Shown here in pieces: positions 1,713-36,040 of a stretch of 56,488 bases of DNA. How positions within the stretch are numbered: position 1 is the first letter of the stretch; each line of letters opens with the position of its first letter. Source of the DNA: a virus; the IMG/VR virus record IMGVR_UViG_3300044673_000143, positions 1-56,488 of that record; one strand, written 5' to 3'. Both the position numbers and the translations under genes were made by a program. The notes under the pieces were generated by a model. The model worked only from the letters and a program-made list of their open reading frames with translations, was not told the DNA's origin and ran no database searches.

Positions 1713-3620
1713 TTAACTCAGCCCGGAAAGAGCGTTATCGGTCGTCCGGAACTTGGCGACCCGTAGCTGTTGACTAGAGTTGCCCGATCCGGTCGGATCG
1801 ACATCGAGAGTATCGACCCCTTCCCACGAGAGCCACGTTAGGCGGGATTCCCGATCGAAGTTGGTAACGCTATCGGTGCGAACCTCGACGGGCATCGCCA
1901 CACCCCGGCCTACAGCACCGTGTCCGAAGAAATAGGAATCGCGGAAAGTCGCGGTGGTCGCGGGAGAACCGGCGCGAACGGTGACATTCGTTACCCCGTC
2001 AGCCCCGGCGTTACCTACCCCGAAAGCGTTGCTCTCGAAACAGTGAACCCCTTCGATAACGCCCATGTACCCGTTAACCCGAGGCTCGGACTCGTCGGGG
2101 ACGTAAGCGGGCAACATCGCGTTAAGGAAGTCGAGAAGGTTAGAAGGGGTCGGGACTTCCCAATCATCATCAAGATCCTCGCGAAGTTGCTTCCACGCGG
2201 TAGAGTTCATAACCGAGATAAAATTGCCATCGGGTAAAGGCTCCCACGGGGACGTGCTACTATGGGCGCGATGACGCATCTCGCGGAGGAATTGTTTGGA
2301 CATCCGCCCATCGCCGTTCTGTAGAGCGGTCGCGGAAGTGGTGATCGTGTTGCCGCGGTTGTACCAGATGACCGAGGTAACATCGTAGCGGGAACGGATC
2401 AGGCGATCCTCGAATTGGGCGTAATCGTAGCCGAATTTTTGATTGAGTTCCGCGGCCAGTTCGTAAGCCGAAAAATACTCGACAAAGCTAACGATCCGGA
2501 TCGGGTTGATCTGTGTCTGCGCGTCCTCTTTCCCCCGTCCGTACTCGCGGATCTGAACATCGACTTTCGAGGTGTTCATCGAGTCGCTACGGGTCGTGAT
2601 CGCGCTGTAGGTACTGCCCGCTGAAAGTTCGTAATCAGCAAGGGTCGGGGAGACGGAAAGATAGTTAAATCGCCCGATCTGAATGACGTTCCCGCGCGAT
2701 TTCGCAAAATCGTAGCGCATCAAGGGCATCATGTGAAACACGAAGCCGGGGCGATGGGTGACGCGCATGATCGCGGAGAGCGTCGGCAGAAAACCGCCGG
2801 GAAGATCCGAGATGATCGTGTTAGCCACGCTCTCGCCGGGATCGATCATCTGAATATCGGTTCCCCGGAACAAACCCGCGCCCTTGCCCCACGAATTGAG
2901 ATCCGCTAGGACATGGCGATAATTCTGCTTGACGTAGCGATCGAGTTCTTGTTTGTCGAAATCGATCACCCGCTCTTTAGTACCCGTGTACTTGAGGACT
3001 TTCGGGAGCGAATCGATGTGATGCTGGATCTCTCGGAACGTGCCGGGTAACTTATCGTTGTAGCCGATCGAGATATTCGTGTTGAAATTTACCGTCTTGA
3101 ATTTCGGCGCGTTGTTCTGTTCTTTCACTTCGTCGTTTTTCGCCTCTTTTGCCGGTTGACCCGATCCGTGGAGTTTCCCGAGGTCGTTGAAATTGTTAAT
3201 AATCCGCTTGGATTCGTTCAGTTCCGTTTCGAGCGCGGTTAGCTTTTCGTTAGTCTGCCTGACCGCTTCCGCGGTTTCCGCTAGAGAGGAGTTAATCCCG
3301 TCTCTCTCGTTTTCTAGTTGCCGATTTCGCGTTTCTAGCTCGGCTTTTTCCGCGTCCGTCGCCGCTTTTACCTCGTCTACGGCCGACTTAACCGCGGAAG
3401 CGACGATCGACTCGATCTCTTTTAAATCGAGCGGAGTCGGAGCGGTTTCGGTTTCGACATTCTTGACGGGAACGAATCCGGCGGGAGACTGTAGCGCGTT
3501 CCGCTCGACGGCCTTGGTCTTCATCTCGAATAATTCTTTCTCGTCCACGGTTTCCCCCTCGGAATCTTTCACGACCACGGGGGTCACTCGTTTAATTTCT
3601 TGCAGTGTTTTTTGGGACAT
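1713..3620 (-). CDS. major capsid protein with N-terminal scaffold-like domain
   Basis: A 635-residue protein. Residues about 60-145 are strongly charged and heptad-like (Glu/Lys/Ala-rich), as in a scaffold or delta domain, and are followed by a Lys/Glu/Asn linker near 150-170. The remainder is the shell domain, with an E-Y-F-S-A-Y-E-L-A-A-E segment, F-E-D-R-L-I-R-S-R-Y-D, and a C-terminal D-S-Y-F-F-G-H-G-A-V-G-R-G stretch reminiscent of phage capsid proteins of the HK97 fold. It lies directly downstream of the protease gene. The protease could remove the N-terminal coiled coil during maturation, so no separate scaffold gene would be needed; I see none. The start at 3620 has only a weak upstream GAGAAAA. 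Confidence 0.75.
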   Translation of the reverse strand: MSQKTLQEIKRVTPVVVKDSEGETVDEKELFEMKTKAVERNALQSPAGFVPVKNVETETAPTPLDLKEIESIVASAVKSAVDEVKAATDAEKAELETRNRQLENERDGINSSLAETAEAVRQTNEKLTALETELNESKRIINNFNDLGKLHGSGQPAKEAKNDEVKEQNNAPKFKTVNFNTNISIGYNDKLPGTFREIQHHIDSLPKVLKYTGTKERVIDFDKQELDRYVKQNYRHVLADLNSWGKGAGLFRGTDIQMIDPGESVANTIISDLPGGFLPTLSAIMRVTHRPGFVFHMMPLMRYDFAKSRGNVIQIGRFNYLSVSPTLADYELSAGSTYSAITTRSDSMNTSKVDVQIREYGRGKEDAQTQINPIRIVSFVEYFSAYELAAELNQKFGYDYAQFEDRLIRSRYDVTSVIWYNRGNTITTSATALQNGDGRMSKQFLREMRHRAHSSTSPWEPLPDGNFISVMNSTAWKQLREDLDDDWEVPTPSNLLDFLNAMLPAYVPDESEPRVNGYMGVIEGVHCFESNAFGVGNAGADGVTNVTVRAGSPATTATFRDSYFFGHGAVGRGVAMPVEVRTDSVTNFDRESRLTWLSWEGVDTLDVDPTGSGNSSQQLRVAKFRTTDNALSGLS

Positions 3621-3671: not shown

Positions 3672-4385
3672 TTACGCCATTACAAAAGCGTTCAAGTTTT
3701 TATCGACAATTCTGGCCTGACGACAGTTACCGGCGAATACGAACGAACACTCTAGCGACTCCAGTTTGCCGACGCGCCGATAGTACGGGGTTAGCAATTC
3801 TTCGTCTACCCATCCCGCCATATACGGGGGATAGTGATCGCAATGTTTATCGCTGTAGGGGGTGTTACAGGTAGGACAGTAAGATTTTCCGTAGAAATTC
3901 CCGCCGATACTCACGTTCGCGCGTCGGCCGTAGATAATATCGGACGCTTCGGGATGGGATGATTCGAGGAACCCGAAAACCAAGACCTGATGATAGCCGT
4001 CTCGCTCGATAATCCCCCGGTCTTCCTCGGGATTCGGGGATTTAGAAAGAATCTTGCTCATTCCCTCCTCGCTCACCCGCGGTAGCGAGTAGAGGAGCGC
4101 GTCGTAAACCATCCCGAAGGTTTTCGATCCGTTCTCCCACGCGTGATCGATCATGAGCGGGCATCCGGGATAGCTCGCTACCATCGTCGCTAGTGCCGTC
4201 TCGTCCCACGCCATCAGCGATCCGTGGATTAGATTATTCGAGGCGAGAAGACAGAATCTTGTTAGTTCCGAGGCTTCCCACGGGGACGCGCCGCGGGGAG
4301 CGTAGGCGTTAATCGCCGTCAGTTCTTCCGCGGTAGGCTCGCGCGTCTCTAGTAGTTTCTCGAAATCCGCTCGGGTTAAAAGCAT
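3672..4385 (-). CDS. putative prohead maturation protease with Cys/His insertion
   Basis: A 237-residue protein. The segment P-L-M-I-D-H-A-W ... F-G-M-V-Y-D-A (His81) and the later N-V-S-I-G-G (Ser159) match the His and Ser strands of HK97-type prohead proteases, which cut the scaffold domain from capsid subunits. Just after the Ser strand is a probable zinc cluster (Cys170, Cys173, His181, Cys182, His184) that classical family members lack. The gene lies 51 bases upstream of the capsid gene, as expected. The N-terminal 30 residues are acidic. Protease activity is inferred from these motifs and from gene order. Confidence 0.6.
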   Translation of the reverse strand: MLLTRADFEKLLETREPTAEELTAINAYAPRGASPWEASELTRFCLLASNNLIHGSLMAWDETALATMVASYPGCPLMIDHAWENGSKTFGMVYDALLYSLPRVSEEGMSKILSKSPNPEEDRGIIERDGYHQVLVFGFLESSHPEASDIIYGRRANVSIGGNFYGKSYCPTCNTPYSDKHCDHYPPYMAGWVDEELLTPYYRRVGKLESLECSFVFAGNCRQARIVDKNLNAFVMA

Positions 4386-4544: not shown

Positions 4545-5183
4545 TTACAGCCATCCCGATCCCCGAAGTAGGTTCGTTGTCGGGCGGGCGCGGGAATTGG
4601 AGTAGGCGAGGTAACAACCGCAATTATCCCGGCAGGAACAGCGATCGGTGGGACGGGGTAGCGTCCCGACGATCTGCCATCCCATAGCCTCGTAAACGCG
4701 GCACTCCCGGCAGGATTCAATTTTCGTTCGTACCCGTTTTTCCCATCGGCTCACCGTGGCGTATCCCCGGCGGTTCCCTTCCTCGAACGCCTCGCGCGCT
4801 TTAGCGATATAGCGTTTCGCCCGGTTTAAGATCTGTTTTTCGCTTTGGGTTCCGAGAATAATATCCCGGCTGAATTTTCGGAGGCGGGCGTATTGAGAGC
4901 GGAGGATAGAGCCGATCCTGCCGTAGTCCGAGGCGTTCATGTCCGGCCGACCGATCCGGTATAGCTGGATCGTCAATGTTTTAATCTCCTCGCTCATCCG
5001 CGTTTCCCATTCCCGAGGCGTTATCCGTTCTGATAGTAGCTCTCGGGTTATTCGGGTAGCCCGATCCTCTCTCGCGGCGATCGTCTCGGACACGAGTTCC
5101 CGAACGCGGGCGGCCGATAGGAATTTCTTCGATCGGTTGTCGTGATAGCGGCGCGTGAGGGGATTAAAACTAAAGTCGCTCAT
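4545..5183 (-). CDS. MuF-like minor head protein
   Basis: A 212-residue, Arg-rich helical protein whose C-terminus has cysteines at 158, 161, 182, 184, 188 and 190 in a C-x2-C ... C-S-C ... C-G-C arrangement around a Y-E-A-M-G-W motif. This resembles the C-terminal zinc-like module of Mu F/SPP1 gp7-type minor head proteins, which bind the portal inside the capsid. It follows the portal by a few genes and precedes the protease, the usual position. Its start overlaps the end of the 56-residue gene upstream. Confidence 0.65.
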   Translation of the reverse strand: MSDFSFNPLTRRYHDNRSKKFLSAARVRELVSETIAAREDRATRITRELLSERITPREWETRMSEEIKTLTIQLYRIGRPDMNASDYGRIGSILRSQYARLRKFSRDIILGTQSEKQILNRAKRYIAKAREAFEEGNRRGYATVSRWEKRVRTKIESCRECRVYEAMGWQIVGTLPRPTDRCSCRDNCGCYLAYSNSRARPTTNLLRGSGWL

Positions 5184-5340
5184 CGATCTCTGGCTCTAAA
5201 AAATTCTCGAAATCGGGATCGGGAGGTTTCTTTTTCCAGTCCCCGATCGCCGCGGATACATCGCTAGAATTCACGTTCGCTCTCGACAGCAACCGCGTCA
5301 CCGGATCGAGATTCTTGTCCTTCGGATTGAATTTCGCCAT
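5170..5340 (-). CDS. conserved 56-residue head-module protein
   Basis: A short gene starting at ATG 5340 with GGGAGA nine bases upstream. It encodes a polar 56-residue protein with N-P-K-D near the N-terminus, D-P-V-T-R-L-L-S-R-A-N-V and S-D-V-S-A-A-I-G-D-W in the middle, then a Pro/Asp/Glu-rich tail. I recall similar small proteins between portal and minor head genes in cyanobacterial prophages, without a known function. Its TAG stop lies inside the start of the MuF-like gene (14-base overlap), supporting coupled translation. Confidence 0.65.
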   Translation of the reverse strand: MAKFNPKDKNLDPVTRLLSRANVNSSDVSAAIGDWKKKPPDPDFENFLEPEIDERL

Positions 5341-5479: not shown

Positions 5480-6202
5480 TTACCCGAAATCTTTTGACAA
5501 GTATCTAGATAGATTCTCGGGAAGTTCGGGGCGATGGATCTCGTACCCTTGAAAATAGTCTATCCCTAATTCTTTTAAACTATTAAATTTTTCTAAAGAC
5601 TCGATCCCTTCCGCCGCGGTAGTGATCGACTGTTCCCGGCAGAAGTTTGTAAAATAGCGAATAAAACTAGATTTTGCCGGGTTCTCGGAATCGAGCAAAA
5701 ATCGCCGATCGAACTTGACGATCTCGGGGAGGATCGCGAATAGCCGATCGAGTCCCGCGTGATTACAGGGAAAGTCGTCGATCGCGAGCTTGTACCCGAT
5801 TTCTTTTAGGTGAAGAACTCCCTTTAGTCCGCTCGGGGAAAGCGGATCGCTTTCCGTTACCTCGATTATTACCCGCTCGGGATCGAGCGTTTCCGCGAGC
5901 TTTTTCAGGTGACACCGATCGGATAATTGTAGCGGCGATATGTTTACGCAAACCCTCGAAATACCGTAGTTTCGGGTATCTTCCCGGATCGATTCGGCGA
6001 GGGATAGATAAAGCGAAAATAAAAGATCCTCGTCCGCGGCCGCCTCGAACACGATCCGCGCGCCTATTTCCTCGAATCCTTTCCATCGGGCGAGAGATTC
6101 GTAAAGACGGGGAACTCCGTCAGCGTTGACGATCGCTTGATAGTGCGGGCGGATCTCTCCCGCGGCTAACGCCCTAGCGAGATCTCCCGATTTTTTTTGC
6201 AT
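5480..6202 (-). CDS. EAL-domain protein, c-di-GMP phosphodiesterase family
   Basis: A stand-alone EAL domain of 240 residues with no sensor, GGDEF or membrane segment, so probably cytoplasmic. The expected active-site residues are all present: Glu35 (in E-S-L, the EAL signature), Asn87, Glu114 and Glu117 (E-V-T-E), Asp142-Asp143, Lys163, Glu198 (A-A-E-G-I-E) and Gln218 (F-Q-G-Y). These coordinate two metals and hydrolyse c-di-GMP to pGpG in the family. Loop 6, normally D-D-F-G-T-G-Y-S-S, reads D-D-F-P-C-N-H-A-G here, a class-2-like change that can reduce activity or alter dimer control. It starts 29 bases inside the 3' end of the portal gene with AAGGA four bases upstream, so it is expressed with the head genes. 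A binding or structural role without catalysis is also possible. Confidence 0.85.
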   Translation of the reverse strand: MQKKSGDLARALAAGEIRPHYQAIVNADGVPRLYESLARWKGFEEIGARIVFEAAADEDLLFSLYLSLAESIREDTRNYGISRVCVNISPLQLSDRCHLKKLAETLDPERVIIEVTESDPLSPSGLKGVLHLKEIGYKLAIDDFPCNHAGLDRLFAILPEIVKFDRRFLLDSENPAKSSFIRYFTNFCREQSITTAAEGIESLEKFNSLKELGIDYFQGYEIHRPELPENLSRYLSKDFG

Positions 6203-7478
6203 TACTTCCTTTTTTAGGTTTTTTGTCGGCTCCCGCGCCGTTCCCGCTTTCTTCCTCGCTACCCGTATTTTCGGACTCGTTCCCGCTCATCCCGTCGATC
6301 GATTCCGACCACTCCGGCCACAAGATCCGATACTTATTGCGCGCGTTTTCTACATACCACTCGTATCCCTTGCGTAAAACGATCTCCGTGTCGATCGTCT
6401 GTTTGATCGCCCCGGTTAGCAATTGACACCACCCGTAACGCATCCGGGAATAACGGCGATCGGGCGATCTCGATAGCTCTTTCGTCCCGCCTTTCGATTC
6501 GAGTCCGGGGAAAAAATACGAGGGGAATCCGGGAATAATCAGCTTGTAGCGGCATTGTAGAAGATACTCGATCAGGGGCGATAGATCGTCCCGGAAATTC
6601 GCCATTTTGTTAATCAGGTACTTGTCGCTTTTTAGCACGAAATCGGTAATGGTTCCCGACTGTCGGCGTAATTGTAGTTCTTGCTCGAATTTTCGCTTTT
6701 CCTCTTCCGAGATCCCCGGAAACGTGTAGATCGTCGGATCGCTCGCTATATCGTCGGCTTTTCTCTGTAGGTTGTCAGCCGCGCGCTTCACGTCCGCCCA
6801 CGCGTCGAGGGAGGGAAGCCAGAGCGATCGCCCGTAGAGAAATTCGGGAGAGTGCCGGAGATGGATGATTTTTTCTGGCTCGAAAAAATAATCGGGATCG
6901 GAGTGCGATAGATATTTTCTCTGCTCGAATCCGAGCAATTCCCCCTGATCGGATTCTTTCCGGAACATCTCGAACGTGGGGAGGTAGAGACTCCTACTCA
7001 CGCCGAAATCCTTGCTCTTGTTCGGGGATAGTCCCTCGCGCTCGATCCCTAGCTCGATAAAACAATCCCCTTTCCCGAGCGACCACCGCAACGCTTTTTT
7101 AAGCTTGTCGCCGCCGATAACGTAGGAGTCGAGAGATTGTTTTCGCTGTCGCGCGTCCTCGCCTATGGCGAGAACCTCGGGATTAACGGGCGTTTCCTCG
7201 TCGTCTAGGGTATCGGCGATCGTCCATCCCCGATCGTCCCCGTCGGAACTAGCGAAAGTATCGTCGGCCGCCATCTCTAGGGAGTGGAAAACCTCGTAAC
7301 ACCACTGGTTAAGCTCGATTAACTCTCGGGAGATACGGGGATCGCGGATCGGGTTCTCCTCGATCTCCAGATCGTACCGGCGCGACATCGACAAAATTCC
7401 CGACGTGGCCAGCGATCGCTGTGATCCTCTCAGCGATCCATCTTTTTTTTTGCCTTTTTTATCTTTTGCTTTAGACAT
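6174..7478 (-). CDS. portal protein
   Basis: A 434-residue protein from ATG 7478, beginning with a Lys-rich basic leader. It has the portal-family layout: L-N-Q-W-C-Y-E-V-F near the N-terminus, a G-D-C-F-I-E-L-G-I strand, I-I-H-L-R-H-S-P-E-F-L-Y-G-R-S with W-A-D-V-K-R-A-A-D-N-L-Q-R-K, and a Ser/Glu/Gly- and Lys-rich disordered tail. Portals form the dodecameric DNA channel at one capsid vertex. The 3' end overlaps the EAL gene by 29 bases. Only a weak ribosome site precedes the start. An in-frame upstream extension runs into the terminator hairpin and is unlikely to be used. Confidence 0.8.
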   Translation of the reverse strand: MSKAKDKKGKKKDGSLRGSQRSLATSGILSMSRRYDLEIEENPIRDPRISRELIELNQWCYEVFHSLEMAADDTFASSDGDDRGWTIADTLDDEETPVNPEVLAIGEDARQRKQSLDSYVIGGDKLKKALRWSLGKGDCFIELGIEREGLSPNKSKDFGVSRSLYLPTFEMFRKESDQGELLGFEQRKYLSHSDPDYFFEPEKIIHLRHSPEFLYGRSLWLPSLDAWADVKRAADNLQRKADDIASDPTIYTFPGISEEEKRKFEQELQLRRQSGTITDFVLKSDKYLINKMANFRDDLSPLIEYLLQCRYKLIIPGFPSYFFPGLESKGGTKELSRSPDRRYSRMRYGWCQLLTGAIKQTIDTEIVLRKGYEWYVENARNKYRILWPEWSESIDGMSGNESENTGSEEESGNGAGADKKPKKGSNAKKIGRSR

Positions 7479-7510
7479 GGGAATAATAGTTCTACTCTGT
7501 ATTCTAAGAG

Positions 7511-7536
7511 AAAAAGACCGCTCTAGTAGCGGTCTT
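7511..7536 (-). terminator. intrinsic terminator before the portal gene
   Basis: On the minus strand AAGACCGCT-ACTAG-AGCGGTCTT forms a 9-bp perfect stem with a five-base loop, followed by TTTCTC (five consecutive Ts counting the stem end). It separates the three-gene unit at 7.56-8.34 kb from the head operon. No clear portal promoter is seen downstream, so some read-through is likely. Confidence 0.75.
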
Positions 7537-7562
7537 CCTTGAAACATTCAGCGAGAGAAACT

Positions 7563-8424: not shown

Positions 8425-9180
8425 TTAGATAGCTTGTAAAGCTCTATTGTAATATTTGATTCTATCGCTAAGTCCGTTGTATCCTCCGTTCACGCGTCGG
8501 GTTACTCGCTCTACACTCGCGCCCCGATCGATGAGCGAGTTCATCGCGTTATCCATCCACCAGAATCCCGAGATCTCGAACGGGTAGCGCGTGACAACGT
8601 ACCGCCACCCTTCCATCACGCGGGGATCGCCGATGAAATCCGCGAATCTTTGGTAGTTGTGCCGTCCCGTGACCTGAATCGCCCCGACCCCCTTGAATCG
8701 GCGACCGTCACCAGGGCGGACGTTCCCGAGATCTCTCCGTCCCTCGTAAGCCGCGCCCGATGCGAACTCGCTGAATTGCCGGAATCCCATTGATTCGTGG
8801 GCGCATTGCGAGATAAAGTGTCGAACGCGGGGGATCGTGGTTATCTCGAATCTTTTCAGGCAATTGTCGAGGCTCTTAAATAGGGAATCGGCGATCGGGT
8901 GATTCAGGATAAACTCTACTTGATCCTCTCGAACCACGGGAGAATCGATATTCGAGTTGTCGAAGTGATCGCGGAAAGCGTACCAGTTCCAGAAGTCCCC
9001 CCGGATCTCGGTTCCCTCGAAAAGTAAGTGCTTTCCTTTCGGGCGAATCCAGTTATAGGTAATTTTTTCCCCTTTCTTCACCGGGATCGTCGCGAATCCG
9101 TCCGGGGGATTCGGATCGGAGGAGTCGATCGGGTAGGATTTTAGAAGCGTATCCCGGAGGGCGATTAGACTATTGCTCAT
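8425..9180 (-). CDS. GH19 chitinase-like endolysin
   Basis: A 251-residue lysis enzyme expected to cleave the peptidoglycan glycan backbone. The catalytic GH19 fold spans about 95-251, with the first catalytic Glu in A-H-E-S (Glu129), the likely second in F-S-E-F (Glu138), Y-E-G-R-R near 145, the conserved K-G-V-G-A-I-Q-V-T-G-R-H-N-Y substrate strand (163-176) and N-G-G-Y-N-G-L near the C-terminus. Residues about 28-75 form a separate Trp- and aromatic-rich region (Y-N-W-I-R-P, W-N-W-Y-A-F-R-D-H), probably a cell-wall binding domain. There is no signal peptide, so export needs the adjacent membrane protein. Its ATG overlaps that gene's stop by four bases. Confidence 0.85.
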   Translation of the reverse strand: MSNSLIALRDTLLKSYPIDSSDPNPPDGFATIPVKKGEKITYNWIRPKGKHLLFEGTEIRGDFWNWYAFRDHFDNSNIDSPVVREDQVEFILNHPIADSLFKSLDNCLKRFEITTIPRVRHFISQCAHESMGFRQFSEFASGAAYEGRRDLGNVRPGDGRRFKGVGAIQVTGRHNYQRFADFIGDPRVMEGWRYVVTRYPFEISGFWWMDNAMNSLIDRGASVERVTRRVNGGYNGLSDRIKYYNRALQAI

Positions 9181-15053: not shown

Positions 15054-16673
15054 CTAAAATCCTCCCGCTAACATAACAGCCTGTACCTCTGCTAATAATT
15101 GATTCTGTAACAATACCAACGTTGAATTTTCCCCTATCCCACTAACAATACTCCATCGATTCGTATGGAATACTAACTCTACTCCCTGTCCTCCCCTATC
15201 TAATACTAGATTCGTATTCCCGACGATATTATGTCCCGTATTGGCGGTAATCGTGAGTGGATTAATCCCGAATCCCGTGAGTAGAGAGGAGTTATTAAAG
15301 TCGGCTATCTCGATAACATCACTGTTGTTTGGAGACGCGGGAAGGGTGAGAGTGAAAGATCCGCTAGAGGTGTTGCAGAGATAACGGGTATTGGATACTG
15401 CCGTGGTGTTAGCGGTGATGACGGATGTGGTGAGGGAAGATCCTCCACCACTCACATTAACCGTAACAGCACCACCAGAATTAGTCGCCGTTACTCCCGA
15501 CCCCGTGAAATTAAAACTCGTGGCGTTGGATGTGAGATTTGTCCCCTCGTCGGATACGGTGATAGCCGATCCACCACCGGACGGAAGGTTCGTAAGCTGG
15601 CTCCCGTCCACCGCCGGTAACTTTCCCGCTCCATCGAGAACCACCACTTTCCCCGCTGTCGTCCCCGTATCGAGTCGGGCGGTGCTGAGTGTTCCCGTCG
15701 TGATATTCCCCGCGTTGATCGCCGTGATATTGCGTCCGTCACCGGCGGGATAGCGTCCGTCCACGTCTCTTTGCAACAGATCTCCGGGGTCGGTTCCGGG
15801 CTTGAGGAAAGCGGCCGCCCCGAGAGCGATCGACTCGATTAAAGTTCCCGCCGCGTTCACCCGTAGAAATTGAGAGGCGCGGCCGGTGAACGAACTAAAA
15901 GTATCGGCGAGTCCGGTGAAAGCGGAACTTCCCGAGGTTCCCGCGTTATCGTCTCCCCACCCGACCGCGTAATCCCCGTTCGTGGACTTCTTGAGAACTT
16001 GCCCCGTTGTCCCGCCCGGCGGGATCAGTCTTCCTCCCGTCAGGATCGCGGTAATTTGCGCCTGTAAGTTCTGGAAAGCTTGAATAATAGTATTCGAGTT
16101 GGTGATCGCCGTATTCGCTCCCGTGACTAGCCCGAACAGGGGAACCGATCTTACCCACGCGGAAAAACCCGTCCAGCCCTTTACCCCGTCTTTAACGCCG
16201 TAGACGTTATCGCCCGAGGGAGTCCCGGCGATCTCGTCCGCGACTTCCGCCGCGTCAACTTTTAGATCCCCGTCCGAGTCGTAATCGTCCGCGAGCATAT
16301 CGCCCCCGCCCGGAGCGGCCGCCCACTCGTTCCCGCTATAAACTAGATCCCCTCCCGAGAGGAGCGATACTTTTAATCCCTCGAAAGGATCGTAAAATTT
16401 CCACGCGCCCGAAATTACCTGTCCGCTTAACCCGATCGCCGGGCAAGCGATTTTATCGGTCTTTCCCGACCACGCGCCAGACGCGCCCGCGGGAACGATA
16501 TAGAACGAATCGGGGCTTAGTCCGTTCGTCGGGGGGGTCGTGACAATTCGGGAGACGATCGGCGCGCGGGCGACGCTGACGAGTCTAAATAATTCGTTCG
16601 CGACCTGTTCTTTATATTCTTGAGAGGAGGACAGTAATAGCCCGTTACTTCCCAGTATTCTCGCCGTAGTCAT
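15054..16673 (-). CDS. tail fibre protein with DUF2793-like domain
   Basis: A 539-residue fibre protein. Residues about 30-115 resemble DUF2793, with A-P-I-V-S-R-I-V, P-D-S-F-Y-I-V-P-A-G-A-S-G-A-W-S-G-K and W-K-F-Y-D-P-F-E-G-L. The middle is Gly/Thr/Ala-rich with fibre-shaft motifs such as G-R-N-I-T-A-I-N-A-G-N-I-T-T-G-T-L. The C-terminus has an L-T-L-P-A-S-P-N-N-S-D-V-I-E-I head domain and ends L-L-A-E-V-Q-A-V-M-L-A-G-G-F. Its first 29 bases overlap the helicase gene, so receptor genes share a transcript with replication genes, which is uncommon. Confidence 0.7.
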   Translation of the reverse strand: MTTARILGSNGLLLSSSQEYKEQVANELFRLVSVARAPIVSRIVTTPPTNGLSPDSFYIVPAGASGAWSGKTDKIACPAIGLSGQVISGAWKFYDPFEGLKVSLLSGGDLVYSGNEWAAAPGGGDMLADDYDSDGDLKVDAAEVADEIAGTPSGDNVYGVKDGVKGWTGFSAWVRSVPLFGLVTGANTAITNSNTIIQAFQNLQAQITAILTGGRLIPPGGTTGQVLKKSTNGDYAVGWGDDNAGTSGSSAFTGLADTFSSFTGRASQFLRVNAAGTLIESIALGAAAFLKPGTDPGDLLQRDVDGRYPAGDGRNITAINAGNITTGTLSTARLDTGTTAGKVVVLDGAGKLPAVDGSQLTNLPSGGGSAITVSDEGTNLTSNATSFNFTGSGVTATNSGGAVTVNVSGGGSSLTTSVITANTTAVSNTRYLCNTSSGSFTLTLPASPNNSDVIEIADFNNSSLLTGFGINPLTITANTGHNIVGNTNLVLDRGGQGVELVFHTNRWSIVSGIGENSTLVLLQNQLLAEVQAVMLAGGF

Positions 16674-19512
16674 CCCCGAACTCCTCGCGCATTTTGCTTT
16701 CTACCCATTTTTGATTATCGATACCGCCGCAACAACGATTCAAATAATCTTGATAACTTTTCACGTTGTCTTCAGTATACTTCTCCCCGAATACCGCGTG
16801 AAGCTTCCAGAACTTCTTTGGCCACCAATCCGTTAATTTATAGATCCTAGCAACATCGAACCTAGCGGCTTCGGGCTTCTTCCCTTTTTTATACGCTTCC
16901 CGCCGCGCTTCCCGATAGGCGTAATAGATTTTTTTATCCTCGTCCGAGACTAAAAGCTGTAACTTCTCGTTCGCTATCCGCCTCTCTTTCCCCTCGGAAA
17001 TAAACTCGAACCCGCACTCGGGACAGACCCGCGCCGACGCGTGAACCATGCAACCGCAATTCTCGCATTCCTTGACGGGAGCCTCGCCCTTCTCGATGTC
17101 TCCAGATCCCCGGAGAACGGGATAGGTCACGTCCTCGATAAAGCCGTGACGCTTCACGTTTCCCGCCTGATCGAGAACGATACAGTCCTCTTTCCCGAGC
17201 CACTTGCAGATCCGTTGACCGCGGCCGGTCATCTGGATATAAAGGGTCGTACTCTTAGTAGGGCGGGAATGAATAATACAGCTAATTTCGGGCAGATTGA
17301 ACCCGATACCGCAAGTATTGATATTGATAATCCCCCGCGTTTTCAGTCGCGCCACGTTTTTAAATATTTCCCGTCTTTCCTCGTGCGGGGTTTCCGCGGT
17401 GATCGTGGCGACGGGAATCCCCCGATCGGTGAATTCTTTCGCGAGCGAGGCGGCGTGAACTTTCCCCGCGGCGAAACAGACGAACGGACGATCCTGCCCG
17501 AGCCTTTTGTATTCCCCGACGATCGACTGTACCGCCTCAAGACAACGGGTTTCGAGTTCCGCCGCGTCGAAATCACCGCCGGTAGACTTAACTCCTTTCG
17601 TGTCGATCTGGTCTTTAGTAGCGAAGTAGACGCATCCCACGAGCGCGCCGCGGTCGATCATCTCTCTCGGGGTCGGGCCGGTAACTTGTGTCTCGAAAAT
17701 GTCCCCCATTTCCTCCCGCTTCGACAATCGCCACGGGGTCGCTGTCAGTCCGATCACGATCCGGTTATCCGTCGATAATTCATTCCCCGAAAATAAATGT
17801 TCCTGTTTTCTAAGGATTTCCCAAGCGGAATTTAATTCTTGCATTTTCTCCTTCGTTCCCCCGTGGTCGGGATGATGGAGAAGGGCGAGGGATTTGAATT
17901 TAGTTTTCACTTCCTCGAAAGTGACCCGATACCCGAATTCCAATCCTTCCCGCTCGACGGCGATTCCGAGAGTAGCGAGTTCGGCAGAAATGTCTTTTAT
18001 CGAGGTCGTCTGTCTGCCGTTTTTGAGATTATTAAAATTACCCCTGAACCAAAGCGAGTACGCCGACAAATGGCACTCATCGAGAAAAATAACTTCGGGA
18101 TCGAACCATGAAATATCCCGCCTCGCTAGTGTTTGAGTCGTGGCGATCTGCACTTTTCGGGTTCGGTCTTCTTTGTACTCTCCCGCTATTATTCCCGCGG
18201 TTAATCCGAATTTTTCGAGAGCTTCTATCGTTTGCTCGATCAAGCAGGTGAACGGCACGACGATCAGTGTGCGACGTTGTTTCTTGATCGCCGCGTCGTA
18301 AATCATTTGGCAGAATAGAACTGTATTGTGGGTTACGGTAAAATCCCCTAAGAGAAAGCGGCGATTTCCGTCGATTGTAAACCCGTAATAATTATCTTCC
18401 TCCAAAAACTCTAGCTTGAAATTTGTTCTTAAAACATTGCATTTCTGTTTTTCCGTGTATTCTTTCGGGGTTTTCTTGTATTCGGTCTTGATCGGGATAG
18501 TTTCTGTATTACCGCTAATTCTGACACGATAGTAAGTTTCTCCTTTTACTTCTTTGGTTCCCACGCTTGTGAAAAAACCTAGAGAGCGAGCGAGAAAAAC
18601 AATTTGATCCGCGAGTTCTTTTCTTTTTTGCGCTATCTCGTAGCCCCCTTTTATCTGCCAGTGTCCGTCCGTGTCAAGAAGTCCGGCGAGAAGTTCTAAC
18701 CTGACCTCTCTTGAGTTGATTAGATAGTTCTGAGGAATATGCTTGTTTTGGACAAGATCTAAGTCTCTCATCATGTTCAATAAATAATTCTTTCTTCGTC
18801 CCTTCTCTCCCATCGTGATCCTGTGAAGCTGAGAATTCGGGTTGTCGTTCCTTGCATCAGAATAAACTTTCATCCCTAAACGATCGGCGTATTTCTTTAT
18901 ATAGTCGATCAATACAGGATTAGACGTACAGACATCCGTGTGCCTGTGATTGCCATCTCCTAGCCAGATACCGAGGAAGTAGGGATCTATCGTGATGGGT
19001 TTGCTGTCGAATTCTACAGGAACCCGATAGAGCAACATCGAGATCTGAATATGTTTCGGGAGAGAAAGGTACTGATCGATAGAAAAATCGTAAACATCTC
19101 CGTTGATCCATCCCGATTTCGGATAGCTTCTCCCGTTATAAACTAACGAAAGAATGTGGCTACGGTTGCAAGTAAATGGCTCTCCCTTGTTCGGGATTAC
19201 CTTTACCATAGTTTCTCTTCCTCTACAGATCGAATCGACATGACGGGGCTTGCTATCATCCCCCATCAGAATATCCCCTACCTCGATATTTTGCGATAGC
19301 TTCACGCTACCGTCATACATAATAATCGGCGTATCTTTTGCTAGACACTTTCCGTACCCGCAAGGAGCGACGGCTAGAATCCTTTTAAATCCCGATCTGA
19401 GGTTGCCGTAAATCTCTTTTTTAAGAGCTTTCTGATCGGGACGGAGTTGGATCGTCGGGGACGAGATTGTCAGGGTGTTCTTTTCGGTTTCTTGGAATAA
19501 TGTTAGGTTCAT
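16645..19512 (-). CDS. SF2 helicase with P-loop intein and inserted J-domain
   Basis: A 955-codon gene for a DEAD/DEAH-type superfamily 2 helicase that remodels DNA for phage replication or recombination. The precursor holds an intein (residues 56-396) inside the Walker A loop (C-G-Y-G-K | T-V-L-F). The host protein continues with motif Ia, the D-E-C-H box (478-481), a J-domain-like insertion with H-P-D (547-549), motif III T-A-T-P-W (590-594), motif VI G-R-G-Q-R and a C-terminal C-x2-C ... C-x2-C zinc ribbon. The spliced protein would be 614 residues. Splicing is needed to rebuild the ATP site, so the precursor should be inactive. The gene overlaps its upstream neighbour by four bases and the fibre gene downstream by 29. 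Confidence 0.8.
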   Translation of the reverse strand: MNLTLFQETEKNTLTISSPTIQLRPDQKALKKEIYGNLRSGFKRILAVAPCGYGKCLAKDTPIIMYDGSVKLSQNIEVGDILMGDDSKPRHVDSICRGRETMVKVIPNKGEPFTCNRSHILSLVYNGRSYPKSGWINGDVYDFSIDQYLSLPKHIQISMLLYRVPVEFDSKPITIDPYFLGIWLGDGNHRHTDVCTSNPVLIDYIKKYADRLGMKVYSDARNDNPNSQLHRITMGEKGRRKNYLLNMMRDLDLVQNKHIPQNYLINSREVRLELLAGLLDTDGHWQIKGGYEIAQKRKELADQIVFLARSLGFFTSVGTKEVKGETYYRVRISGNTETIPIKTEYKKTPKEYTEKQKCNVLRTNFKLEFLEEDNYYGFTIDGNRRFLLGDFTVTHNTVLFCQMIYDAAIKKQRRTLIVVPFTCLIEQTIEALEKFGLTAGIIAGEYKEDRTRKVQIATTQTLARRDISWFDPEVIFLDECHLSAYSLWFRGNFNNLKNGRQTTSIKDISAELATLGIAVEREGLEFGYRVTFEEVKTKFKSLALLHHPDHGGTKEKMQELNSAWEILRKQEHLFSGNELSTDNRIVIGLTATPWRLSKREEMGDIFETQVTGPTPREMIDRGALVGCVYFATKDQIDTKGVKSTGGDFDAAELETRCLEAVQSIVGEYKRLGQDRPFVCFAAGKVHAASLAKEFTDRGIPVATITAETPHEERREIFKNVARLKTRGIININTCGIGFNLPEISCIIHSRPTKSTTLYIQMTGRGQRICKWLGKEDCIVLDQAGNVKRHGFIEDVTYPVLRGSGDIEKGEAPVKECENCGCMVHASARVCPECGFEFISEGKERRIANEKLQLLVSDEDKKIYYAYREARREAYKKGKKPEAARFDVARIYKLTDWWPKKFWKLHAVFGEKYTEDNVKSYQDYLNRCCGGIDNQKWVESKMREEFGDDYGENTGK
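17788..17928 (-). other. J-domain-like segment inside the helicase
   Basis: Residues about 529-575 (R-V-T-F-E-E-V-K-T-K-F-K-S-L-A-L-L-H-H-P-D-H-G-G, then M-Q-E-L-N-S-A-W-E-I-L) reproduce helices II and III of a DnaJ domain with the invariant H-P-D tripeptide. This tripeptide activates DnaK ATPase in J-proteins. It lies between helicase motifs II and III, a position where an insertion can loop out of the RecA fold. Confidence 0.7.
18325..19347 (-). other. intein with LAGLIDADG homing endonuclease
   Basis: A 341-residue intein beginning with Cys56 (C-L-A-K-D-T-P-I, block A) and containing block B around C-N-R-S-H-I-L, two LAGLIDADG-type motifs (F-L-G-I-W-L-G-D-G and E-L-L-A-G-L-L-D-T-D-G) and block F/G ending F-T-V-T-H-N. 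The C-extein begins with Thr, a usable +1 nucleophile. Both endonuclease motifs keep their acidic residue, so homing into inteinless helicase alleles is plausible. Confidence 0.9.
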
Positions 19513-25250: not shown

Positions 25251-25874
25251 ATGGCCGTATCGCGCACCGTTACCGACGAGAACGGAAAAACCGTTCCGAG
25301 AAAGCGGGTAAAATCTTCGGCTCTAACCGAACACGGAATCGAACGCCTCGGGAAAACTTTAAAAGAAAAACGCGACGATTTAGGCATGACGCAAGAGGAG
25401 TTCGTGGTCTGGATCGAGCGCGAATCGGATCGCCTCGGAATTCCGGGCGTTCGTCTCTCCGTCGGGGCGATTCAGAATTGGGAATTACCGCGTATCGCGT
25501 CCTGCCCCGACCTCGGGAATATGCGGGTTCTCGCCGCGGTTTTCGGACTCGATACCGATTCTTTCGTTACTTACTTAAACGGCAACTGGAAATCGATTAA
25601 CGAGTTGACGGGCGATCCCGATTATCGGAAAAAGGGAGGTATCGATTTAAGCCCGAACCTAGCCGCGGAGATGTTCCGCAACGCCGACATCCGCGTTAAG
25701 GCTCCCGTTATCGTCGGGGAATTGCAATCGCTTTTCGCCCGTATCGAGGAAATTCAATTCGCGACGACGCGCGAGGTTAGCAAGGAAGAGGTAGAGGGTT
25801 ATTTAACGTCCGCGCCGAAAGAGGTTCAAAAGGAATTCTACCGACTTCTACAAGATCGATTGATCGGCGCGTAG
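25251..25874 (+). CDS. XRE-family repressor
   Basis: A 207-residue regulator on the plus strand, with AGGAG eight bases before the start. A basic N-terminal arm (K-R-V-K-S-S) precedes an HTH_XRE domain (about 30-95: L-G-K-T-L-K-E-K-R-D-D-L-G-M-T-Q-E-E-F ... L-S-V-G-A-I-Q-N-W-E), with a longer than usual insertion between helices. The C-terminal part is helical and Glu/Lys-rich, without the Ser-Lys autoprotease motifs of LexA/CI. It likely maintains lysogeny. It is paired with the integrase and opposes the minus-strand lytic genes. Confidence 0.7.
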   Translation: MAVSRTVTDENGKTVPRKRVKSSALTEHGIERLGKTLKEKRDDLGMTQEEFVVWIERESDRLGIPGVRLSVGAIQNWELPRIASCPDLGNMRVLAAVFGLDTDSFVTYLNGNWKSINELTGDPDYRKKGGIDLSPNLAAEMFRNADIRVKAPVIVGELQSLFARIEEIQFATTREVSKEEVEGYLTSAPKEVQKEFYRLLQDRLIGA

Positions 25875-25889
25875 TCGATTGTAACGATC

Positions 25890-26159
25890 TAGGGAAGTTT
25901 TAGGGAATCGATTTTCAGCGGCCGACAGAAGTTAGAAATGGCGAGGCTTTCAGGAACTACATCGACGGACTTAAAATCCGTTGAGGCTTATCACCTCGTA
26001 AGGGTTCGAGTCCCTTCGCCCCCACTGTTTACTACTATTTGAACGGGTTACAGCGTCCGATACGATGATTTAAAGTTGATACAGAAAAAACACTAAATGC
26101 GTCACGACGCGTCCGACTTTAGGGAAGATTTAGGGAAGATAGACGAGCGGATTAGGGAA
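25890..26159 (+). repeat. five TAGGGAA direct repeats flanking the attP core
   Basis: TAGGGAA occurs at 25890, 25901, 26120, 26131 and 26153, always in the same orientation. Two copies lie left of the half tRNA, 11 bp apart. Three lie right of it, spaced 11 and 22 bp. The one- and two-turn spacing on both flanks is what integrase arm-type sites look like. The right group lies inside the first codons of the integrase gene. Confidence 0.6.
25938..26024 (+). other. attP-like 3' part of a tRNA-Leu(UAA) gene
   Basis: The 3' two thirds of a tRNA-Leu are present: anticodon stem ACGGA/TCCGT with loop CTTAAAA (anticodon TAA, 25965-25981), a long variable arm (GAGG...CCTC), T-arm AAGGG-TTCGAGT-CCCTT (26000-26016), acceptor strand CGCCCCC and A (26017-26024). 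The 5' acceptor strand GGGGGCG is missing and the D-arm region is degenerate. It lies between the repressor and the integrase, so it is most likely the phage attachment site that restores the 3' end of the host tRNA on integration. Confidence 0.75.
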
Positions 26160-27209
26160 TCAAATTTAACGTTGCGAAGGGTAGCGATCCGGAGGAAGGG
26201 AGATCGTTTGTTCCTACGGGCGACGCTACCCGATCGGGTGACGGGGAGAAAAAGACAACAGGAATTAAGGACGGGCGCGCCCGCGACGATAGCGGGACTA
26301 AGAGCGGCCAAGATCAAGGCCGATACCCTATCGAGCGAACTTATCCTCGGAACTTTCAAATGGGAAAACTGGCTATCGCCCGAGTTAGTCGCGTCGGGAG
26401 ATAGTTGTAGGGAATGGATCGAGAAACTAACGGCCGACCACTGGAACCGAGTGAAACGAACGAAAAGCCGCGAGAGAAGCTTTCGGGAAGATTATCTCAA
26501 TCCGTACTCGAAACTCCCCCCTAACGCGATTTTAAGCGAGGATCTACTAAGGGAAACGCTCGTCAGAGAGACGAGTCCGGGAGAGGGAAAGACGCGTAAC
26601 CGATACTGTCTAGCCTACACGAGGCTCGCGCGGTTCGCGGGATTGGGAATCGATTTCAACAAATACAGAATACGGTACGAACCGGGGGAACGGTATCTAC
26701 CCGAGGATAGAGAGATAGAGGAGACGATCGACCGGGTGAAAAATCCCGCGTGGAGATGGATAGCCGGGATAATGGCCGCCTATGGATTGCGGCCGCACGA
26801 ACTATTTCATCTCGATCTATCGGGAATGGACGGGGAACCGCCGATTTTGAGGGTTCTGTCGTCCACGAAAACGAGAGAGAGAACGGTGCTACCGTGTCCC
26901 GCGGAATGGGTCGACCGTTGGAACTTGAAAGAAAAGCATTGGCCTGATTTCACGGTATCCCCCGAGACTCACGACAATAAAGATCTCGGGGCGAGGATAA
27001 CGCCGGGGCTAAAACGGAACGGGATTCTATGGACGGGCTACGCTTTCCGGGATTGCTACGTTATCCGATTGGAGAAAGCGGGGTGGCCGCCTAATCTCGC
27101 GGAGAAGATGGGCGGCCACAGTCGGGAGACGAGGAAAAAATCCTATCTCCGGCACGTTAACGATCGGGATCTGATCGACGTGTTCCGTCGGTTGAATCGG
27201 GGGGATTAA
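26097..27209 (+). CDS. int: tyrosine recombinase (phage integrase)
   Basis: A 370-residue integrase for recombination at the adjacent attP. The N-terminal arm-binding region (about 15-60, R-L-F-L-R-A-T-L-P) and core-binding domain precede a catalytic domain with Arg232 (A-Y-G-L-R-P-H-E-L), Lys258, the Y-A-F-R box (Tyr315 in place of the usual His, then Arg318), His341 (G-G-H-S) and nucleophile Tyr350 (K-K-S-Y-L-R-H). The His-to-Tyr change is, to my knowledge, common in cyanobacterial relatives. No Shine-Dalgarno sequence is obvious before 26097. The arm-type repeats overlap codons 7-22, which may link expression to att occupancy. Confidence 0.85.
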   Translation: MRHDASDFREDLGKIDERIRESNLTLRRVAIRRKGDRLFLRATLPDRVTGRKRQQELRTGAPATIAGLRAAKIKADTLSSELILGTFKWENWLSPELVASGDSCREWIEKLTADHWNRVKRTKSRERSFREDYLNPYSKLPPNAILSEDLLRETLVRETSPGEGKTRNRYCLAYTRLARFAGLGIDFNKYRIRYEPGERYLPEDREIEETIDRVKNPAWRWIAGIMAAYGLRPHELFHLDLSGMDGEPPILRVLSSTKTRERTVLPCPAEWVDRWNLKEKHWPDFTVSPETHDNKDLGARITPGLKRNGILWTGYAFRDCYVIRLEKAGWPPNLAEKMGGHSRETRKKSYLRHVNDRDLIDVFRRLNRGD

Positions 27210-28569: not shown

Positions 28570-29679
28570 TTAGAAATTGATGCACCGCAAAACGATCTCG
28601 ATCACTTCCCACGGAGAAAGATTACTACAGGTATTCCACCCCGATCCCCCGACCGTAGCGCGTCCGCCCCATCCTTCCTCGCTCGGATCTCGTTCTTTTT
28701 CCGCTATTGACAGCGTGGTATAGGTTCCCGTTGTAAAGTCGATTTTTTCAGTTTCAGGGTGATTCGGATTACAGGCAAGTGTGTACTTGTTGCCGAGGTA
28801 TTTGTTATCCACGATTACCTCGCGTTGGGTGAGGGTAATGGGGGAATAAAAGCTGATATTTTGTCCTTTCTTTTCTAAAATCCGATCGATCGCCCGATAG
28901 GTGCAACGGGGATCGATGTACGTCCCGCCTAGCCCCGACATCGTGACTACGGCACAATTTTTATAAAAACTAATCCGATTCTCCTCGATTAGTTGATTCG
29001 TGAACTTCTCGACTTTCTCCCAATACTCGGAAATTTTCGGATGGTCGCACGGCCAGTTATCCTTACCCTCGATCGCTCTCACTAGATCCCAAAAGGATTT
29101 TTCAAAAGCGCGGGAGTGAAAATACTCCTTCTGCTCGATCGTCCATTCCCGCCGATCTTTGGGCATATCGAGATCGATAGCGAGGTCGTCCGATTCGCAT
29201 TTCATTCCCGCTACACACTTAGCGGCAAAATCGGCGTAATTGGATAGTTCGGGCGGGACGGCGAGGTGATCGCAGTCGTAAGAGATAGCGACTAGCTTGC
29301 TGTAGTTATCCGTGTATCTCCCGTTAAAACAATAGAGATTTGTTCGATCGGGCGCGAGGTAGGTTAGGTAGAGGTGTACCGCGCTAGATACCGCGTCCGC
29401 GTCTAACTGAGTGGTCGCGAATAATATATTATCGCGTTTGTCTATCGGGCAGAGATCGGAAAAATTAACTCCTTCTTCCGCCATGAAATCTATCTGTTTT
29501 TCGATGTCTTCAATTTGAACTTTGTCGCCGCCGGGTCGATGATGGTCGAAATGCCAGTCAATTTCACGCGGTTCCCATCCCGGTACGGTTCCGTCGATCA
29601 TAACGACCGAACACTCCCCGAGTTCGGCGATTTTGGTATTGAGAGTTTCTAGATTTGTCGTAACAAGAAAATTAAGCAT
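28570..29679 (-). CDS. DHH-type phosphoesterase-like protein
   Basis: A 369-residue protein. It has D-H-H at 45-47 (in W-H-F-D-H-H-R-P-G-G), an acidic L-D-A-D-A-V-S-S-A motif (92-100), Y-D-C-D-H-L (134-139) and a Gly-rich C-terminal segment, G-W-G-G-R-A-T-V-G-G-S-G-W-N. These resemble the metal-binding and substrate motifs of DHH/DHHA1 phosphoesterases (RecJ, nanoRNases, c-di-AMP phosphodiesterases). In the classical order the D-x-D motif precedes D-H-H, whereas here it follows, so the family may be permuted or only distantly related. A role in nucleotide or signal degradation is inferred. Its leader is a near copy of that before the XRE gene. Confidence 0.5.
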   Translation of the reverse strand: MLNFLVTTNLETLNTKIAELGECSVVMIDGTVPGWEPREIDWHFDHHRPGGDKVQIEDIEKQIDFMAEEGVNFSDLCPIDKRDNILFATTQLDADAVSSAVHLYLTYLAPDRTNLYCFNGRYTDNYSKLVAISYDCDHLAVPPELSNYADFAAKCVAGMKCESDDLAIDLDMPKDRREWTIEQKEYFHSRAFEKSFWDLVRAIEGKDNWPCDHPKISEYWEKVEKFTNQLIEENRISFYKNCAVVTMSGLGGTYIDPRCTYRAIDRILEKKGQNISFYSPITLTQREVIVDNKYLGNKYTLACNPNHPETEKIDFTTGTYTTLSIAEKERDPSEEGWGGRATVGGSGWNTCSNLSPWEVIEIVLRCINF

Positions 29680-30101: not shown

Positions 30102-31136
30102 TTAAAAACCCTCGTCTTCATCCGCGGGGACGGTTTCGAGTAGTGGTCTATCCTCGATCATCGCGTCGATTTCCGCGGATACTTGGGGATTAATCTCGTT
30201 CCCGACGATCTCCGCTTCGGTGAAATTAACTCGATCCTTTAACAGGGAATTGACCGTATCAAAATACTCTCGCTTGGTTGTACAGCGATCGGCTATTAGG
30301 GTCGCTTCCGATAGCGACATCCCCTGTTTGACCGCCCACTGAATCCCGTCTTTTTTGCTAGATGCCCACTCGTTCCCGTTGGACGCGGGTAACGCTTTTT
30401 GCTGTCCCGAAGAAGGCAGTTCGGGGCGGGAAGGCTCGCCCGTGAACTGTTGGAAAGCGCGGGTTTCAATGACTTGCAAAACTTTGGCGGCGCGATCGGG
30501 ATGAACGCGGATCGAGAGTAGATTAAAAGTCTTTCTTCCCCGTTTTCCGTCCGGGAGAGGATAGGAAAGTTCCCGCGGCCCGCGCTCTAGTAGGAAAGGA
30601 ATCCCGGTCAGACTCCCCGCGGCGGTTTCCACGGCTAGAAGTTGTTCGGTTAGTCCGATGATGTCCCATTTTGAATGGGTTTCGACCTCGAAATAGCCCA
30701 TCTCCCCGAGCTTCGGTAATACGACGTGCAGTCTTCCTACTTGCTTACACTCGCACGTCCCGAAATTGCCGTCAGCCCCTTCTATTAGTTTCTTGCAGGG
30801 TAGGGGACGGGTAGCGATAATTTTTCCTTTTTCCTCGTAAAGTACGCGGGTTTCTTCGTCGCATCGGGTAACGATCGAGGACTTGCCCCATTCTTCCATC
30901 CACGCGGGAAAAACTTGTTCGACGGAAGCGAACGGGAGAAGGCAGTCGAGTTGATCTGGTTCTTTCCCGTAGACTCGGGTGAATTTTTCGTTAATCCCGT
31001 CGATGTCGGAATCGACGCGAAAATAGGTTAGATCCGAACCCGGTCGGTTACTTCCCGCTTTTTTCTCGTCTCCCTTACGGATTTTTCCGAGCATCGGAAA
31101 TCGGGCGTTTCTAGTGGTCAAAGATTTAATAGGCAT
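30102..31136 (-). CDS. Gp3-like protein (phage recombination directionality factor family)
   Basis: A 344-residue protein. The central part (about 85-165) has a cysteine pattern, R-P-L-P-C-K-K-L ... F-G-T-C-E-C-K-Q-V-G-R-L-H-V-V-L-P, followed by G-Y-F-E-V-E-T-H-S-K-W-D-I, which I recognise from the Gp3-like family named after the phiC31 recombination directionality factor. The C-terminal third is a low-complexity linker and a small helical domain. In temperate phages with tyrosine integrases the family's role is unclear and may be in DNA replication or repair. The gene lies early in the operon from promoter C. Confidence 0.5.
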   Translation of the reverse strand: MPIKSLTTRNARFPMLGKIRKGDEKKAGSNRPGSDLTYFRVDSDIDGINEKFTRVYGKEPDQLDCLLPFASVEQVFPAWMEEWGKSSIVTRCDEETRVLYEEKGKIIATRPLPCKKLIEGADGNFGTCECKQVGRLHVVLPKLGEMGYFEVETHSKWDIIGLTEQLLAVETAAGSLTGIPFLLERGPRELSYPLPDGKRGRKTFNLLSIRVHPDRAAKVLQVIETRAFQQFTGEPSRPELPSSGQQKALPASNGNEWASSKKDGIQWAVKQGMSLSEATLIADRCTTKREYFDTVNSLLKDRVNFTEAEIVGNEINPQVSAEIDAMIEDRPLLETVPADEDEGF

Positions 31137-35868: not shown

Positions 35869-36040
35869 TATCATTCTTCCGTGTAGAATCCATCGCTACC
35901 GAGTTTCGGTAGACAATGCAGTGATTTCCGTATAGAACCCGATCCCCCCGGCACGAATCGAGAAAAGTCAGCGCGGCCGCCCCCCCGAGAAATACCCCGA
36001 CGATCGCTAGAACCCGCTTTTTCTCCGATAGCTCGCTCAT
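35834..36040 (-). CDS. small membrane or lipoprotein-like protein
   Basis: A 68-residue protein starting in an ATGA overlap with the tape measure stop. A basic N-terminus (S-E-K-K-R) precedes one hydrophobic helix (V-L-A-I-V-G-V-F-L-G-G-A-A-A-L-T-F-L-D-S-C). The helix ends at a cysteine that could be lipidated, although F-L-D-S-C is not a standard lipobox. Two more cysteines sit at the C-terminus. It may act at tail attachment to the cell membrane, or in superinfection exclusion. Unknown. Confidence 0.5.
   Translation of the reverse strand: MSELSEKKRVLAIVGVFLGGAAALTFLDSCRGDRVLYGNHCIVYRNSVAMDSTRKNDNGEHACYCANR

Follow-up and report, generated by a model that had tools for sequence, protein, structure and literature searches.

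The 56,488 nucleotides analysed here (the window) are IMG/VR record IMGVR_UViG_3300044673_000143, positions 1 to 56,488. They carry a gene for a sensor-less EAL-domain protein, which is one of several cargoes found in a slot directly behind the portal gene in a group of related freshwater cyanophages. The reading we favour, by a narrow preference over all others taken together, is that the product is a late-expressed c-di-GMP phosphodiesterase that would lower c-di-GMP in the host. The gene is probably an accessory one used to manipulate the host, and not a component of the virion.

The EAL gene, its neighbours and its carrier

The EAL open reading frame occupies exactly 5480..6202 on the minus strand, a strand that the sequence-only reading had left out, and encodes 240 amino acids from an ATG start with a Shine-Dalgarno-like stretch (AAGGAAG) directly 5'. 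The product matches Pfam family PF00563 with E=2.6e-37 and 128.9 bits, above the curated cut-off of 31.3, and covers profile positions 3-236 of 236. The EAL domain thus fills the protein from end to end and no other domain was found, in agreement with the earlier description of the protein as sensor-less. Its relatives in the PDB include BlrP1, PdeA, RocR and others, and the nearest EAL proteins encoded on plasmids are 30-35% identical. The AF2 model (mean pLDDT 71, pTM 0.69) has an EAL-type barrel fold; its top matches in the PDB are all EAL proteins, with RocR the closest (TM 0.71-0.78, E=1.1e-15).

The first 29 nt of the EAL gene fall within the portal gene (6174..7547, minus), as had been proposed. 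The portal protein shares 35% identity with the portal annotated in phage Cr-LKS4 and 81-84% with its nearest IMG/VR relatives, and Pfam and PHROG searches with it gave no match; a downstream ATG at 7478 corresponds to the start used in relatives. On the other side, a small conserved gene of 56 codons (5170..5340, minus), with homologues in the divergent EAL carrier L003, in the contig L006 and in the methyltransferase clade described below, marks the far end of the slot, and its Cr-LKS4 counterpart sits directly 3' of the portal gene. Beyond it lies a head gene (4545..5183, minus) that had been called MuF-like; it found no match in Pfam, and its sole match is phrog_24776, of unknown function. 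The earlier placement of the EAL gene between portal and MuF-like genes is therefore right on the portal side; on the other, the small gene intervenes and Pfam does not confirm the MuF assignment. The row continues with a probable head maturation protease (3672..4385, minus; phrog_18299, E=3e-4) and the major capsid protein (1713..3620, minus), which has a long N-terminal coiled-coil stretch and is 32% identical to the annotated Cr-LKS4 major capsid protein over 84%. Upstream in the same row is an endolysin (8425..9180, minus; phrog_181, E=5e-39). A simple scan of the minus strand found no promoter-like sites in the portal-EAL interval, with hit numbers no higher than chance. Because the EAL gene overlaps the portal gene and belongs to this head and lysis gene row, it may fairly be taken to be made late, together with the head proteins, as had been suggested.

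Several sequence features point to a temperate-type cyanophage. A tyrosine integrase gene (26097..27209, plus; PF00589, E=7e-5, slightly below the cut-off) lies beside the 3' half of a tRNA-Leu(UAA) found with ARAGORN (25937..26025, plus), a probable attachment site; on inspection, the 5' half of that prediction is unlike a real tRNA. Together with a gene resembling Gp3-like recombination directionality factors (30102-31136), this arrangement indicates a temperate type. The HIP1 octamer is enriched in the window (16 observed, 3.35 expected), and the nearest named phages are the Cylindrospermopsis phages Cr-LKS4 and RM-2018a, which share the order of portal, small gene, head gene and protease at 31-35% identity in portal and capsid. 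The same virus is present in another record, 73.2 kb long and 99.99-100% identical across the overlap, which contains an IS/TnpB gene whose nearest relatives are on Planktothrix and Acaryochloris plasmids. Taken together, the HIP1 enrichment, the phage kinship and the IS/TnpB gene indicate that the host is a cyanobacterium. Searching for the host through prophages gave no match, either with the portal alignment or with the tRNA-Leu attachment site (its T-arm/acceptor end). The large terminase gene lies in the 15 kb missing from the window.

Other features of these genomes were recorded in passing. In the twin record (L108, 41-1408 and 1339-1818) the IS/TnpB element is inserted in a phage gene that is uninterrupted in the window (25251-25874), a probable repressor adjoining the integrase. 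The helicase (16645-19512, minus) contains an intein with a LAGLIDADG homing endonuclease, plus a DnaJ-like insert, and the tape measure protein (36037-47946, minus; 3969 aa) has a weak lipase-like stretch at about residues 470-548. A 369-aa protein (28570-29679, minus) with DHH-like (DFDHHRPGG) and DADAVSSA motifs, also kept in the genome of L003, might be a phosphoesterase; as a candidate for the second-step, pGpG enzyme it found no support in Pfam, NCBIfam or the PDB.

Catalytic residues and loop 6

All nine catalytic residues named in the sequence-only reading (E35, N87, E114, E117, D142, D143, K163, E198 and Q218) align with catalytic residues of PdeA and RocR, giving the complete set of an active EAL enzyme: the ExL glutamate, the Asn, two Glu, the DD pair, the Lys, the base Glu and the Gln. 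Substrate-side residues are also retained, namely R39 of ExLxR, D165 and E201. E. coli BluF, which is enzymatically inactive and bears the RefSeq name antirepressor, no longer has the second Asp or the base Glu, whereas the phage protein retains every position.

Besides the twin record, scanning IMG/VR with the EAL protein returned a single divergent homologue, L003; only two independent copies were found in 2.9 million contigs. The search for portal-EAL neighbours in other phage genomes, proposed earlier as a check, thereby yielded a second intact lineage. The two EAL proteins are 55% identical (56% in the best segment), while the head proteins of the two phages are 80-84% identical; dN is about 0.33 for the EAL gene, matching endolysin and holin, and 0.11 for portal and capsid. 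All nine catalytic residues are identical in L003 (hypergeometric P=0.004). For the EAL pair, pN is 0.27 and pS 0.73, with synonymous sites near saturation, so that dN/dS serves as a rough guide only; the values indicate that purifying selection acts between the two copies.

The one departure from the canonical active site is loop 6, which reads AIDDFPCNHAGLDRLF (residues 140-155). Where the canonical loop has DFG(T/A)GYSS, both phage copies have DFPCNHAG, with both metal-binding Asp residues retained. This loop had been called degenerate. It is indeed non-canonical, but it is not decaying: it forms the longest identical run between the two proteins, 16 residues in a row (P=0.004) at 55% identity overall, which argues for constraint. 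A scan of IMG/VR for the pattern DDFPxNxAG found EAL proteins with such a loop in this phage clade only. The odd loop is both lineage-specific and constrained.

In active EAL enzymes the DFG(T/A)GYSS loop has been described as essential for activity (PMC12943098), and the two Asp residues bind metals (PMC5301497). Since loop 6 of the phage protein departs from that sequence, its activity may be lost or changed. The phage protein shares fold, length and all nine catalytic residues with RocR, PdeA (CC3396) and BlrP1, all of family PF00563, and differs from them in its DFPCNHAG loop, in having no sensor or GGDEF domain, in its identity of 22-35% and in being phage-encoded. A parallel in architecture is E. 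coli PdeH (YhjH), an active stand-alone EAL protein whose loop 6 likewise departs from YSS (DDFGTGMAN); PdeH, however, keeps the GTG of the loop, is chromosomal and is only 15% identical. Judged from these alignments, an active enzyme is the likelier reading, although not a secure one.

A cargo slot behind the portal gene

Using the portal alignment, we retrieved 80 loci and surveyed what lies between the portal gene and the small gene. An intact EAL gene is present in two lineages, a relic of it in 8 contigs, a DNA methyltransferase gene in 47, a vanadium-chloroperoxidase-like gene in 1, and nothing in 10. These last are outgroup loci (portal 32-35% identical) in which nothing separates the small gene from the portal gene, as in Cr-LKS4; neither Cr-LKS4 nor RM-2018a has a slot insert, and tblastn found no EAL gene in either record. 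Since the junction holds an EAL gene, its relic, a methyltransferase, a haloperoxidase-like gene or nothing, it is a cargo site, at which presence varies among close relatives at a fixed position. The earlier remark that an insertion there is unusual loses much of its force in this phage group, where the junction is used regularly.

In the 47 methyltransferase loci (portal about 71-76% identical), the slot opens with the methyltransferase gene, which in 43 cases shares its first 8 nt with the end of the portal gene. The slot spans 1.3-2.3 kb where the whole interval is covered. The EAL gene resembles these methyltransferases in its slot, in its overlap with the portal stop and in being accessory and variable; related freshwater cyanophages differ from the EAL phage in carrying an N6/N4 methyltransferase instead. 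The ends of the methyltransferases (L030 7328-8260, L037 3147-4580, L070 7235-8149 and 44 others) are constant, MINQIIHGDCF... and DPFCGSGTTALACKELGRNYICIEKELEYY..., and the middle region is highly variable, which suggests that target-recognition regions have been swapped among these phages. The single haloperoxidase-like occupant (L061, 7235-8944) is a 569-aa protein with CARDB and vanadium-chloroperoxidase/PAP2-like regions, an unusual phage cargo.

The relic is found in the contigs L006-L013, where the first ~25 codons of the EAL gene are fused out of frame to the last ~23. The eight contigs represent three sequence types and are therefore not eight independent cases. Their portals are 81% identical to that of the window, and on the portal tree the EAL clade and the relic clade form one group with a support of 99/100, so that a single loss, after a common ancestor that had the EAL gene, is the most likely history. 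The deletion in this sister lineage also shows that the gene is dispensable. In one of these contigs (L012, about 7540-7558), a baseplate protein is seemingly broken or internally shortened, which could be an assembly error.

Proposed function and alternatives

The course that we infer, from expression timing and hydrolysis to the fall in c-di-GMP and its benefit, would begin with a temperate-type cyanophage lineage acquiring a sensor-less EAL gene in the slot between the portal gene and the small head gene. The gene would be translated late from the head and lysis mRNA, coupled to the portal, and its product would fold as a usual EAL barrel, bind Mg or Mn through E35, N87, E114, D142 and D143, and cleave c-di-GMP to pGpG with E198 as the base. 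Lacking a sensor, the enzyme would run unchecked and drain the host pool, much as E. coli YhjH/PdeH, also sensor-less, lowers c-di-GMP and makes cells smaller when expressed in Anabaena (PMC9927289). In Thermosynechococcus, aggregation is driven by c-di-GMP (PMC5871770). When c-di-GMP is low, cyanobacteria aggregate less, have less matrix and differ in motility and size. A late drop that loosens aggregation or matrix could thus ease the release and spread of progeny from clumps or mats, which is the benefit we prefer.

Among the alternatives, a rather unlikely one is that the protein binds c-di-GMP, or another host partner, and does not cut it, acting as a sponge or a FimX-like regulator that the altered loop 6 has made non-catalytic or conditional. 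The non-canonical loop, identical in both phage copies, fits this idea, as does FimX, an inactive EAL protein that lacks the DDFGTG motif (PMC5301497). A pure binder, however, would have no need of E198 and K163, and the retention of these, of both metal-binding Asp residues and of the remaining catalytic positions sets the phage protein apart from BluF. Somewhat less probable still is a counter-defence enzyme, its specificity tuned by loop 6, which by analogy would remove an antiviral cyclic dinucleotide (c-di-GMP of a CBASS system or a related molecule). Infection-made c-di-GMP triggers bacterial STING effectors (PMC8748872), the methyltransferases that share the slot are plausible anti-restriction genes, and the head genes diverge far more slowly than the EAL gene; its fast divergence is not specific, though, because lysin and holin in the same row are also fast, and the region gave neither a PADLOC match nor a defence-linked neighbouring gene.

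We regard as improbable a captured gene that brings no present benefit and is heading for loss, as happened in the sister lineage. Such a gene would account for the out-of-frame relic (eight contigs, three sequence types) and for the small number of carriers, but the two intact copies, which at 55% identity keep every catalytic residue and show a pN well below pS, speak of long-lasting selection. A structural or assembly role in the head, raised in the sequence-only reading, is very improbable. The overlap with the portal gene and the location among head genes favour it, yet the gene is not conserved with the head genes: relatives with portal and capsid at 81-84% identity have it wrecked or missing, the outgroup lacks it, and methyltransferases (47 contigs) or the haloperoxidase-like gene take its place in the slot.

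Compared with the preferred late phosphodiesterase, a bolder reading is held only tentatively. The two phage proteins would then be the first recognised, truly virus-encoded EAL family, in which a phage-specific loop 6 alters how the protein is regulated or which substrate it takes (it might, for instance, be constitutively active with no dimer control, or act on a different cyclic dinucleotide). The proteins would serve late in infection to shut down host c-di-GMP signalling or a cyclic-dinucleotide defence. Among the EAL matches inspected in annotated phage records nothing comparable was seen. One candidate, the GC-rich GGDEF-EAL DNA of AS-1 contig_14, is probably a contaminant; the inspected gut scaffolds with EAL genes resemble bacterial sequence entered under a phage label. 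A library of predicted viral protein structures held no EAL fold, its best matches being glycerophosphodiester-phosphodiesterase-like and other barrels with weak scores, and our literature search found no EAL protein in cyanophages and no report of a phage directly attacking c-di-GMP.

In cyanobacteria, c-di-GMP governs aggregation, motility and cell size. If the phage EAL protein is active, it would offer a ready test of whether phages reset the second-messenger state of bloom- or mat-forming cyanobacteria before release. Furthermore, the conserved odd loop 6 provides a natural test of the role of this loop in EAL proteins, and the portal-adjacent cargo slot is a place in which to seek further host-directed genes.
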